From positions 1,529,001-1,593,000 of the forward strand of contig NZ_CP125380.1 of the NCBI RefSeq assembly GCF_034009455.1: DNA of 64,000 nt, read 5' to 3'. Under the pieces are notes generated by a model. That model saw nothing but the letters and a program-made list of their open reading frames with translations, was not told the origin of the DNA and did no database searches. Both the position numbers and the translations under genes were made by a program. This stretch comes from Pseudomonas sp. P5_109. GTDB taxonomy: Bacteria; Pseudomonadota; Gammaproteobacteria; Pseudomonadales; Pseudomonadaceae. Below are positions 55,213 through 60,269 of the stretch, one piece after another. The first letter of the stretch is position 1, and the number at the start of each line of letters is the position of its first letter.

Positions 55213-55302
55213 GGAGAGATGCCAGAGTGGCCGAATGGGACGGATTCGAAATCCGTTGTACCTTCACCGGTACCTAGGGTTCGAATCCCTATCTCTCCGC
55301 CA
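55213..55302 (+). tRNA. tRNA-Ser (anticodon CGA)
   Basis: A 90-base tRNA with acceptor GGAGAGA/TCTCTCC and encoded CCA. The anticodon loop TTCGAAA gives CGA. The long variable arm (TTGTACCTTCACCGGTACC region) is typical for serine. A terminator follows at once. Confidence 0.96.
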
Positions 55303-56783: not shown

Positions 56784-57710
56784 ATGAATCGCAACGAACT
56801 TCGCAAGGCGGATATCAACCTGATGGTGGTATTCGAAACACTGATGCTCGAGCGCAATGTCACTCGGGTGGCGGAGAAGCTGTTTCTCGGCCAGCCGACC
56901 ATCAGCTCTGCACTCAACCGCTTGCGTGCGATGTTCAATGATCCACTGTTCATCCGCGTTGGCCACCGCATGGAGCCGACAGCGCGGGCGGAGGAGATCA
57001 TCAGGCACCTGTCGCCGGCGCTGGATTCCTTGTCCGTGGCCTTGAGCCTGACCCATGATTTTGACCCGGCCAGCAGCACGATGACATTCCGCATCGGGTT
57101 GTCCGACGATGTCGAGTTCGGCCTGTTGCCGCCATTGCTGCGAACTCTGCGCCAGGAAGCGCCCAAAGTGGTGTTTGTGGTGCAGCATGTCGATTACTGG
57201 CGGATTCCCGACTTGCTGGCGTCCGGCGATATCACGGTGGGTATCAGCCAGACTCGTGGCTTGCCGGCCAATGCCAAGCGCAAGTTGCTGCGGCACATCC
57301 AGCCCAGCATATTGCGCGCCGATGCCAGCGACACCCCGCTGACCCTCGATGAATATTGCGCGCGACCACATGTGCTGGTGTCCCATACCGCTAACGTCAG
57401 CGGCTACGCCGACGAGTGGCTGGCGGAAATCGGCCGCACGCGCCAGGTGGTGCTCTCGGTACCGCAATACAGTTCGTTGCCGGCACTGCTCGCCGGGACG
57501 GACCTGATTGCCAGTCTGCCGGACTACACCGCCGAGGCGATGGCCGCATCGGGAACGCTGTTCAAGGAACCCTTTCCCTTCAAGACGCCGACCCTGGACT
57601 TGTCCATGGTCTGGCTCAGTCATGTCGATACCGACCCCGCCGAGCGCTGGTTGCGCTCGCGCCTGGAGGTGTTCATGAGTGAGCGTGCCGTTTTGCCGCT
57701 GCCCGAATGA
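56784..57710 (+). CDS. LysR-family transcriptional regulator
   Basis: A 308-residue regulator. HTH at residues 5-65 (ADINLMVVFETLMLERNVTRVAEKLFLGQPTISSALNRLR) then a LysR substrate-binding domain. It resembles the NodD/NahR-like subgroup of longer N-terminal HTH (NRNELRKADINLMVVFETL). The CHMI gene 55 bases downstream on the same strand may be part of its unit. The effector is not known. Confidence 0.9.
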   Translation: MNRNELRKADINLMVVFETLMLERNVTRVAEKLFLGQPTISSALNRLRAMFNDPLFIRVGHRMEPTARAEEIIRHLSPALDSLSVALSLTHDFDPASSTMTFRIGLSDDVEFGLLPPLLRTLRQEAPKVVFVVQHVDYWRIPDLLASGDITVGISQTRGLPANAKRKLLRHIQPSILRADASDTPLTLDEYCARPHVLVSHTANVSGYADEWLAEIGRTRQVVLSVPQYSSLPALLAGTDLIASLPDYTAEAMAASGTLFKEPFPFKTPTLDLSMVWLSHVDTDPAERWLRSRLEVFMSERAVLPLPE

Positions 57711-57765: not shown

Positions 57766-58131
57766 ATGCCTCACCTGCACATGGAATACACCGCCAACCT
57801 GACTGACCTGAATGCCGATGTGGCACTGATGCGGTTGAACAATACGTTGGTGGGTTCCGGTCAGTTTGCTGCCGAATTCGACATCAAGAGCCGCGCAGTC
57901 AAGGTCGAGACGTTCAAGGTTGGAACCGCATTGGCTGAGCGGGCGTTCGTGCATGTGAAACTGGCGCTGTTGAGTGGTCGTTCGGCACAGATCAAGAAAC
58001 AACTCTCCGAAAGCCTGCTGGCGGTGGTGCAGGAACTGTGTGAGTGGCCGAGCGGCGTTGAAGTCCAGTTGTGCGTGGAAATTCTCGACATCGATCGCGA
58101 ATCTTATTCGAAGACATCTATTGGTCAATGA
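57766..58131 (+). CDS. 5-carboxymethyl-2-hydroxymuconate isomerase (CHMI)
   Basis: A 121-residue tautomerase-superfamily protein. After removal of Met1 the catalytic N-terminal proline is exposed (MPHLHMEYT). It isomerises carboxymethyl-hydroxymuconate in homoprotocatechuate breakdown, though the rest of that pathway is not in the window. The last ten codons (ESYSKTSIGQ) use AT-rich codons. The last 146 bases up to 58100 are repeated at 59151-59296, where the apparent native tail DSYSKTAINN is found. The present C terminus was thus supplied by inserted DNA. ATG has an AGGAG site. Confidence 0.88.
   Translation: MPHLHMEYTANLTDLNADVALMRLNNTLVGSGQFAAEFDIKSRAVKVETFKVGTALAERAFVHVKLALLSGRSAQIKKQLSESLLAVVQELCEWPSGVEVQLCVEILDIDRESYSKTSIGQ
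57955..58100 (+). repeat. 146-bp direct repeat, copy A (in CHMI)
   Basis: Matches 59151-59296 at 144 of 146 positions (differences at 57957 and 58080). The two copies bound the inserted methyltransferase segment. Confidence 0.95.
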
Positions 58132-58192
58132 GCTGTAGCGCTTCACTGGTTCAATTGACCAGGTCTCTCTTAATTAAAGCGGGTTGCTAATC

Positions 58193-58972
58193 ATGGCAGG
58201 TATTCAGAAAGCTGCTCAACTGGGCTACTCATCGCAAGCTGGAACTTATGCCAAGGGGCGCCCGAGCTATCCACGCGAACTGGTTACCTGGCTTAGAGAA
58301 ACACTTGAAATTCAACCGGGGTCGACGGTAGTTGATTTAGGAGCCGGCACCGGTAAATTCACTCAGTTATTGGGATCAATGGAGATTGATGTCGTAGCGG
58401 TCGAGCCCATAGAAGCCATGCGAGCCGAGTTTGCCGGGAATCTACCGCACATCACGATCTTGGAGGGAACGGCCGAATCCATCCCGCTCAACTCCGGAGC
58501 AGCGCGAGCACTGGTATGCGCTCAGGCTTTCCACTGGTTTGCAAATGAAACGGCCCTTGCCGAGATTCACCGAGTGCTTGAACCGAACGGTCGGTTGGGG
58601 TTGATCTGGAACGTGCGTGATGAGTCGGTGGACTGGGTTGCGGCCATCACAGACATCATCGCGCCGTACGAAGGCGATACCCCACGCTTTCATACCGGGG
58701 ACTGGAAATTGGCATTCACTGGGCGTTACTTTTCTGAACCAGAACTTACCTGCTTCCCATACACCCATGCGGGTAGCGCCAAGGAAGTCATCATGGACCG
58801 ATTTCTCTCGGTGAGTTTTATCGCTGCCCTACCTCCTACCGAAAAGGCGAAAGTTTCCGAACAGTTGCAGAGACTGATCCAAACACATCCGTACCTTCGC
58901 GAGTGTGGAACCATTGAGCTTCCGTATCAAACTCGAGCTTATCTGTGTCGTCGGTTAGAGGGAGCCCCATAG
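58193..58972 (+). CDS. Class I SAM-dependent methyltransferase (inserted gene)
   Basis: A 259-residue methyltransferase. Motif I is VVDLGAGTGKFTQLL at about residues 45-59, with VVAVEPIEAMRAEF as the acidic loop and LVCAQAFHWFANETALAEIHRVL as post-I motif. Similar to UbiE/Methyltransf_11 proteins; substrate unknown. It uses more AT-ending codons (TTA, TTG, GTA, GGA) than neighbours and lies between the two halves of a duplicated CHMI 3' end, so it is a recent gain. Only a weak ribosome-binding site is seen. Confidence 0.85.
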   Translation: MAGIQKAAQLGYSSQAGTYAKGRPSYPRELVTWLRETLEIQPGSTVVDLGAGTGKFTQLLGSMEIDVVAVEPIEAMRAEFAGNLPHITILEGTAESIPLNSGAARALVCAQAFHWFANETALAEIHRVLEPNGRLGLIWNVRDESVDWVAAITDIIAPYEGDTPRFHTGDWKLAFTGRYFSEPELTCFPYTHAGSAKEVIMDRFLSVSFIAALPPTEKAKVSEQLQRLIQTHPYLRECGTIELPYQTRAYLCRRLEGAP

Positions 58973-59141
58973 TAATTTAGCATTGGTGGGGGCGGCGGAG
59001 CCAAGCTAATAAACCAAAAAAAGTGCCGTTCGCTGAGGTAAGTTGTTTGTGGATAAAAAAAGATTAAGCATGGCCAAATGAACGAGTCGCCACGCTGGCG
59101 TCTTCCGAAGTCTGCGGCCGAATTTCGTCTTCTAGAGTTGC

Positions 59142-59327
59142 ATCGTTGAAGTAAAACTGGCGCTGTTGAGTGGTCGTTCGGCACAGATCAAGAAACAACT
59201 CTCCGAAAGCCTGCTGGCGGTGGTGCAGGAACTGTGTGAGTGGCCGAGCGGCGTTGAAGTCCAGTTGTGCGTGGAGATTCTCGACATCGATCGCGATTCC
59301 TACAGCAAGACCGCCATCAACAACTGA
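59142..59327 (+). pseudogene. Displaced 3' end of the CHMI gene
   Basis: From 59151 the DNA is a near-identical second copy of the last half of CHMI (VKLALLSGRSAQIKKQLSES...), and continues into a different tail DSYSKTAINN with the native GC-rich codons, stopping at 59325-59327. It has no start codon of its own and an in-frame stop at 59133 just upstream. It is the original 3' end, now cut from its gene. Confidence 0.9.
59151..59296 (+). repeat. 146-bp direct repeat, copy B
   Basis: Second copy of the repeat at 57955-58100, offset exactly 1196 bases. 144/146 identical. Confidence 0.95.
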
Positions 59328-59330
59328 GTA

Positions 59331-60269
59331 TCAGGCCGTTTCCTGCTCGACGCAGGCCTGGATCACTTGCTCTCGCAGCCAGGTGTTGGCGCTGTCCTGA
59401 TCAACTCTCTGGTTCCACTGCATGTCGAGGGTGAAGCCCGGCAAGCCTTCCGGTGTTTCACAGTGATCGAAGGTGTCGGCACTGGCCAGCAATCGCTGGA
59501 TGCGCCGGGGCAGGGTCAGGGCATAGTCGGTGCCGGTAATCAGCTTCAGCGCTGCACTGTAGCTGTTGGCGCGTGCGACGATCTGGCGCTGTTGTGCCTG
59601 CTGAGCGAGCCAGCCGTCGACCATGTTGGTCGCGGACGTCCAGGGTGTCGGGAACACGTGTCGACGTTCGACATAGGTTTGCAGGCTCAAGCGTGGTTCT
59701 GCCGGCGTGGCGCGTTTGTCGAACACACATACCAGATCATCTTCGAGCAGTGCCTGCGATTTGAAATCGACGTGACGGCGATGAAAGTTCGGACCGAAGC
59801 ACATCACCAGGTCGAGGCTGCCGTCGCGCAACGCTTCGGCAGGGATATCGGCTTCGAGTTTGAACACATTGACCATCACCGGAAGATCGGCGAGGTCGAA
59901 GGTTTTCAACAAGCGCGGCAGGATCAACTGCTCGAAATATTCCGGTGCGCAGATGTTGAAGGTCACGGGCTGCAGGCTCGGGTCGAAGGCGGGTGAGCCG
60001 GCATGACACAGATTGATGCTCTGGAGGATTTTCAGCGCGTGGGGATACATCGCGCCGGCCTTGCCCGTGGGCTGCATGCCGCCGGTACGGGTATTGATGA
60101 ATAGCTCGTCTTCGAAAATGGCGCGCAGTTTTTTCAGGCAGTAGCTCACTGTGGACTGGCTGACGCAAAGCGTCTCGGACACGCCGGTGACGCTGTTCTG
60201 CTCATACACGGCGACGAACACCAAGAGGTCCTGCATGTCGAGTTTTCTAAGCGAATTACTGTTCAGCAT
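59331..60269 (-). CDS. LysR-family transcriptional regulator
   Basis: A 312-residue regulator. HTH at residues 8-65 (MQDLLVFVAVYEQNSVTGVSETLCVSQSTVSYCLKKLRAIFED) then the substrate-binding domain. The stop codon is four bases from the displaced CHMI end, convergent with it. Divergent from nothing: the DMT transporter gene upstream is on the same strand. Effector unknown. Confidence 0.9.
   Translation of the reverse strand: MLNSNSLRKLDMQDLLVFVAVYEQNSVTGVSETLCVSQSTVSYCLKKLRAIFEDELFINTRTGGMQPTGKAGAMYPHALKILQSINLCHAGSPAFDPSLQPVTFNICAPEYFEQLILPRLLKTFDLADLPVMVNVFKLEADIPAEALRDGSLDLVMCFGPNFHRRHVDFKSQALLEDDLVCVFDKRATPAEPRLSLQTYVERRHVFPTPWTSATNMVDGWLAQQAQQRQIVARANSYSAALKLITGTDYALTLPRRIQRLLASADTFDHCETPEGLPGFTLDMQWNQRVDQDSANTWLREQVIQACVEQETA

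Follow-up and report, generated by a model that had tools for sequence, protein, structure and literature searches.

A methyltransferase gene and a second CHMI gene end inserted at one chromosomal site in Pseudomonas

Two ends of one CHMI gene

A CHMI-family gene of Pseudomonas sp. P5_109 is followed by a methyltransferase gene and then by a second copy of its own 3' part, which ends in a different way. How such an arrangement arises when no integrase is found next to it is the question that we have addressed here. The locus lies in a stretch of 64,000 nucleotides of contig NZ_CP125380.1 (hereafter the window, to which all positions refer), and its features are the following.

56784 to 57710, plus strand: LysR-type regulator (PF03466/PF00126), left neighbor of CHMI, which served as left flank.
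57766 to 58131, plus strand: CHMI-family gene (PF02962), 121 aa, chimeric, with native 5' part and core and imported last ~10 codons.
57955 to 58100, plus strand: repeat copy A, native core, 144 of 146 bases identical to copy B.
58101 to 58131, plus strand: tail A, with which the CHMI frame closes, donor type (30/33 to Pseudomonas umsongensis and 18/33 to tail B, counted over the final 33 nt).
58132 to 58192, plus strand: leader from the CHMI stop to the methyltransferase start, common to the carriers and absent at the methyltransferases looked at elsewhere.
58193 to 58972, plus strand: class I SAM-dependent methyltransferase gene, 259 aa, the cargo (Methyltransf_11/25; PDB 4hg2, E 3.3e-10).
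58973 to 59150, plus strand: right end of the insert, of which the first ~29 bases (to ~59001) align with P. umsongensis, followed by an unmatched stretch up to the copy-B junction (59143-59151).
59151 to 59296, plus strand: repeat copy B, a 5'-truncated CHMI remnant, 144 of 146 bases identical to copy A.
59297 to 59327, plus strand: tail B, the native CHMI end DSYSKTAINN, one base different from the tail of the relative G021.
59331 to 60269, minus strand: convergent LysR-type regulator (PF03466/PF00126), usual right neighbor of CHMI in relatives (76 of 95 methyltransferase-free loci).

The original prediction, made from the letters alone, was of a 146-bp duplication of the CHMI 3' end with two different tails, and this is confirmed. 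The two copies, with a spacing of 1196, differ at two positions, 57957 (G in copy A, A in copy B) and 58080 (A in copy A, G in copy B). Past 58100 the tails diverge, with 18 of 33 bases shared in the final 11 codons, stop codon counted. Copy A runs into ESYSKTSIGQ, an in-frame CHMI end; copy B runs into DSYSKTAINN, which ends 3 bp short of the LysR frame on the minus strand, and an in-frame stop TAG (59133-59135, by eye) stands just before copy B. A search of Rfam around the locus gave one tRNA at 55213 and no match at the insert. An assembly error behind the repeat is unlikely and has been set aside, since the host genome is one contig of 6.96 Mb and two other assemblies (L061 and L062) have short copy-B remnants in the corresponding position.

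The full-length gene matches PF02962 with E 1.5e-16 (61.4 bits vs a gathering score of 26.5). It fails the cut-off of the HpaF-type CHM isomerase equivalog NF011605 (37 vs 215), and we describe its product as a predicted CHMI-like protein. When compared with other CHMI ends, tail A is of the family type (ESY.KT.I). The donor tail keeps the CHMI frame at full length, because it replaces the native tail in frame.

The uninterrupted version of this gene is found in G021, which of all genomes searched is the nearest relative (93.5% identity in lysA and 91.6% in lysB). Here CHMI ends in DSYSKTAINN, the copy-B tail, 7 bp before the LysR match, as had been anticipated for the site before insertion. 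We have examined 95 methyltransferase-free CHMI loci, one per genome, out of a larger hit set (CHMI matches outside the 95 are found for example in G045, G077, G096, G104, G163, G174 and G190). The convergent LysR gene was within 150 bp in 76 of them, 18 had no LysR match at a 45% identity cut-off and one (G038) carried another insert. A second CHMI fragment was seen at none of the 95 (tblastn E 0.001, 1.5 to 12 kb downstream), nor did any of these genes end in ESYSKTS[IV]G. The empty site of G021, together with the LysR gene close behind CHMI at most of the loci, indicates that tail B is the native end, displaced by the insert, and that tail A came with the inserted DNA. Methyltransferase-free relatives with tail A, which would have spoken against this, did not appear among the 95, and the DNA of tail A plus leader always stood before a methyltransferase.

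The full-length gene itself is a chimera. Its 5' part and core are 93.1% and 89.7% identical to G021, and the core is 78.8% identical to P. umsongensis. Tail A is similar to that of P. umsongensis and unlike tail B, indicating that it arrived with the insert, in line with what had been proposed for it. A G021-like core followed by an umsongensis-like tail places the change from recipient to donor DNA near 58098-58103. Copy B consists of the copy-A core with the native tail.

A few methyltransferase-free loci have peculiarities of their own. In G038 (L163, 8357-12038) a different insert of ~3.7 kb lies between CHMI and LysR. It codes for a PLD-domain protein, seemingly divided between two frames that overlap, and for a Sel1/DUF6396 protein, which together we take to look like a secreted-lipase and immunity pair; neither a CHMI repeat nor a recognized integrase was found in it, and the CHMI tail of this genome (TAVAL) is unusual. 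L008, L161 and L162 have a CHMI gene without LysR behind it, and in L008 another gene family follows, phosphoethanolamine transferase-like by eye.

Cargo, carriers and descent of the insert

The cargo had been read as one SAM methyltransferase gene with foreign codon use. The first part stands, with a single open frame of 259 aa that matches Methyltransf_11 (E 3.1e-15; 57 bits vs a gathering score of 21.2). As for the second, GC3 is indeed low (0.542 vs 0.714-0.783 in the CHMI 5' part and both LysR genes), but this is no proof of a distant source, because the gene has such a GC3 in three carriers (0.54-0.57) and its nearest kin are in other Pseudomonas. The best PDB match, 4hg2, is a type 11 methyltransferase without known substrate. 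The protein stays below every NCBIfam equivalog cut-off shown, including that of the BioC malonyl-ACP O-methyltransferase (41.2 vs 184.95). The claim that no integrase is present agrees with the ORF list of the insert, in which no longer or recombinase-like frame was recognized beyond the methyltransferase (of the frames in the insert, Pfam was run on that of the methyltransferase).

The right end of the insert (58973-59160) found the window's own match only in 398 genus genomes, and 58% of it (about 59002-59142) was without match. There was no match to the insert in phage records, and no relative of the methyltransferase among the six pattern stretches from viral contigs; seven plasmid records gave partial methyltransferase matches only, with no plasmid relative of the insert, and no short att core was found for it. 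Among the best 80 of 539 methyltransferase loci (flanks up to 5 kb, shorter at contig ends) three adjoin CHMI. A long flanking repeat was present only in L065 (78 nt, 96%), the other loci of the 80 having none or short chance-like ones. L066, L067 and L070 hold close relatives of the gene in unlike neighborhoods (3HCDH/TetR; BenE and TauD; sulphur transport/TetR), which suggests that it moves about the genus without a recognized element. The CHMI-methyltransferase leader was not found at the nearest methyltransferase loci elsewhere, whose neighborhoods, looked at for three loci, differ.

The same methyltransferase beside such a CHMI tail, which the original prediction had proposed to look for, is found in four other genomes, so that the window is one of five carriers of this arrangement, in three lineages. 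The DNA of tail A plus leader (58090-58215) has matches in 4 of 398 genus genomes, that of the window included, with the methyltransferase right behind in all four. The order LysR-CHMI-methyltransferase-LysR is present in P. umsongensis (G295, L060/L064), P. fluorescens PS833 (G229, L062/L065) and G273 (L061), and a protein-based scan added P. lini (L069). Further draws from the genus, which overlap and are not independent samples, gave no new carrier lineage; the tail and leader of PS833 were found in 5 of 397 genomes (two at full length, three by 29-34 bases) and in 3 of 328. In five of five carriers the insert sits in CHMI and the junction from CHMI tail through leader to methyltransferase is homologous, P. 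lini being without part of the leader. The right junctions are not alike. In the window, with its repeat of 146 bp, copy B begins at 59143-59151, and in PS833 and G273, where the repeat is ~70-80 bp, it begins ~100 nt before the copy-B stop. P. lini keeps about ten bases of tail B only, and P. umsongensis has no copy B. An empty-site CHMI, L152 of G129, ends in ESYVKTAINH. These are also the tail A residues of PS833, G273 and P. lini, and the tail A of these three is thus matched by an ordinary native end of CHMI.

We have compared the descent of the methyltransferase with that of the flanking genes. In a lysA+lysB tree of 21 genomes the carriers stand in three places among relatives with empty sites: the window is joined to G021 (100/100), P. 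umsongensis to G088 (97/95) and G128, and P. lini to PS833 and G273 (100/100). On this tree, the insert must have changed state three times or more. A clade of the window and P. umsongensis was rejected by lysA+lysB (p-AU 0.00035), and so was one of the five carriers (5e-50), p values that serve as guides since the clades were chosen after the methyltransferase tree had been seen. In the latter the window and P. umsongensis are joined (100/99); vertical descent of the window insert is thus rejected by the lysA+lysB tree. Between these two genomes the methyltransferase is 88.6% identical, vs 83.8% in lysA, 77.1% in lysB and 79.6% in an MFS-type gene. The CHMI 5' part reaches 87.3%, near the methyltransferase value, over 189 nt only, and conserved genes further off (MBL and purC) reach about 94%, so that it is the comparison with genes of similar rate that carries the discordance. 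Methyltransferase and flank rates are comparable, as the genes of P. lini, PS833 and G273 differ by similar amounts (PS833 vs P. lini, 93.1 in the methyltransferase and 93.6, 93.8 and 92.7 in the lysA, lysB and MFS-type set). Tree and identities together argue that methyltransferase and tail moved between the window and umsongensis lineages, that is, for a horizontal spread of both among Pseudomonas lineages. Methyltransferases away from CHMI (L066, L067, L068, L070 and L076) fall within the same 10-row tree group, and it is the shared tail and leader that, by themselves, suggest a single origin of the CHMI-linked ones.

The two repeat copies have been homogenized in one carrier. The B tails of PS833 and G273 are the same (33/33), most simply explained by one shared event, and their B cores agree at 57/66. 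Core A and core B agree at 65/66 in PS833 and at 57/66 in G273. With the A and B cores of PS833 so alike against the difference of the B cores across the pair, one of the two cores in PS833 has been overwritten with the other, a clear case of gene conversion between repeats less than 1 kb apart. Since A and B copies can be made alike in this way, the 144/146 identity of the window copies is not a clock, nor proof of a recent event.

Routes by which the insert may have entered

The insert has likely spread by ordinary homologous recombination at CHMI, without an integrase. Its constant position in CHMI with a CHMI tail, the differing right junctions and the lack of a recombinase point to one-sided homology, and an integrase would not be needed to choose the target when the fragment itself carries part of the target gene. 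The reading that we prefer, and to which we would give about an even chance, is that a short Pseudomonas fragment recombined by homology into the resident CHMI, through a single crossover and gene conversion. The donor fragment, from another Pseudomonas, would have consisted of a CHMI end, the leader, the methyltransferase and about 170 bp. Starting inside CHMI and ending behind the methyltransferase, it would have been taken up and circularized, with the present junction near 59143-59151 as its end-joint. A single crossover within the ~146 bp of CHMI would give the order CHMI, tail A, methyltransferase, joint, CHMI core and tail B, and gene conversion would then have made the two cores alike, the tails being too diverged and staying different.

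A single crossover agrees with the target segment being repeated on both sides, one copy running into the donor tail and the other into the native tail. It also predicts a donor-derived copy next to the end-joint, and here the core of copy B is native-like; a single crossover with an umsongensis-like donor would consequently need an addition, be it conversion of one core by the other, a donor core almost identical to the native one or a native core that was duplicated. Against the supposed end-joint stands that about 59002-59142 is without match, and no true donor was found among the genomes searched. For P. umsongensis, with no copy B, either a loss or another route would have to be assumed. 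In E. coli, according to the accessible part of PMC3240628, linear DNA that has been partly degraded and then ligated enters by a single crossover and leaves part of the target gene duplicated, a route that occurred ten times as often as HFIR, whose typical result is a deletion. Single crossover with conversion is preferred here over HFIR for this reason, a duplication being left by the former and mostly a deletion by the latter in that account (PMC3240628).

A bolder extension of the single-crossover reading, which we regard as a long shot, makes the CHMI-tail/methyltransferase unit a recombinase-free homing cassette. It would carry its own landing pad and enter any Pseudomonas CHMI via the homologous recombination of the host, the new tail keeping the gene working. 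Recombination between A and B would release a circle for the next genome, and conversion would keep the pads alike and the unit mobile.

A one-step HFIR, with a linear donor anchored at the CHMI end and an illegitimate joint upstream in the sister-chromatid CHMI that duplicates the native core, is possible and in our view rather unlikely. It would explain a native-like copy B (144/146) from the start, and fits one homologous and one non-homologous side as well as lineage-specific right junctions; the left switch does lie inside CHMI and the right end is unmatched. There are precedents in the accessible parts of the literature: HFIR has been described in P. stutzeri (PMC3240628), a similar one-sided insertion with old 3' parts pushed downstream has been proposed for Vibrio T6SS arrays (PMC5361080), and small duplications have been reported after transformation of S. 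pneumoniae (PMC3784515). However, the products covered by the accessible part of PMC3240628 are mostly deletions and here we have a duplication, and of the 3-10 bp of microhomology expected the right junction allows, by eye, a short ambiguous match only.

It is improbable that we are looking at the remnant of a site-specific element, a phage or island with the CHMI 3' end as att and a replacement gene end, whose integrase has since been lost. An in-frame, element-borne tail in place of the gene 3' end is the classic outcome of such elements, and the window and the PS833/G273 pair pass from native to donor sequence at the same codons of CHMI. Nevertheless, the insert has no integrase, no phage-record match and no viral-contig relative, plasmid matches being limited to parts of the methyltransferase. 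There is no fixed core either, with the repeat going from 146 bp in the window through ~70-80 bp in PS833/G273 and ~ten bases in P. lini to none in P. umsongensis, and the one other insert among the 95 loci (G038) is without CHMI repeat or recognized integrase.

Very improbable is one old insertion, inherited vertically, lost from most relatives by A/B recombination and with the copies kept alike by conversion. Copy-B remnants of unlike length in two carrier lineages would fit it, gene conversion does occur in PS833 and recombination between the direct repeats would restore the empty site. Yet many losses would be needed, as sisters of every carrier lineage have empty sites, and the methyltransferases of the window and P. 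umsongensis are more alike than their flanking genes permit. A transposon target-site duplication was discarded, 146 bp being too long and tail A being a CHMI tail.

Significance and comparison with known systems

Our literature searches found no paper on this locus or this kind of structure. The locus provides a natural, phylogeny-dated case of a gene that three Pseudomonas lineages have at one chromosomal site, no mobile element being recognized, in which the frame of the target is kept by the donor tail and the native tail remains as a scar that can still be seen. Should one-sided homologous integration be able to add accessory genes at gene ends repeatedly, island searches based on integrases would miss small insertions of this kind, and the signature to search for would be a displaced gene end behind a foreign gene.

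The integrative elements e14 and phage 21 at icd replace the 3' end of a gene in frame and displace the native end to their far boundary. The insert described here resembles them in both respects, and differs in being without integrase and fixed core and only 1.2 kb long. With HFIR, as known in A. baylyi, S. pneumoniae and P. stutzeri, it shares one homologous and one non-homologous side and the short foreign DNA, but leaves a duplication instead of the usual deletion and has no clear junction microhomology. Rhs/T6SS effector arrays, as presented in the accessible part of PMC5361080, similarly gain a new 3' end and a new downstream gene with the old end as a downstream remnant; here, in contrast, the target is a housekeeping-type enzyme that receives a family-type tail, and the cargo is a methyltransferase instead of a toxin-immunity pair. 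Finally, single-crossover (Campbell-type) integration at E. coli lacZ, to judge from the accessible part of PMC3240628, also duplicates part of the target on either side with no site-specific recombinase. Unlike that case, ours is a natural locus, where the donor tail restores the frame, the copies have been homogenized and the structure is found in three lineages.
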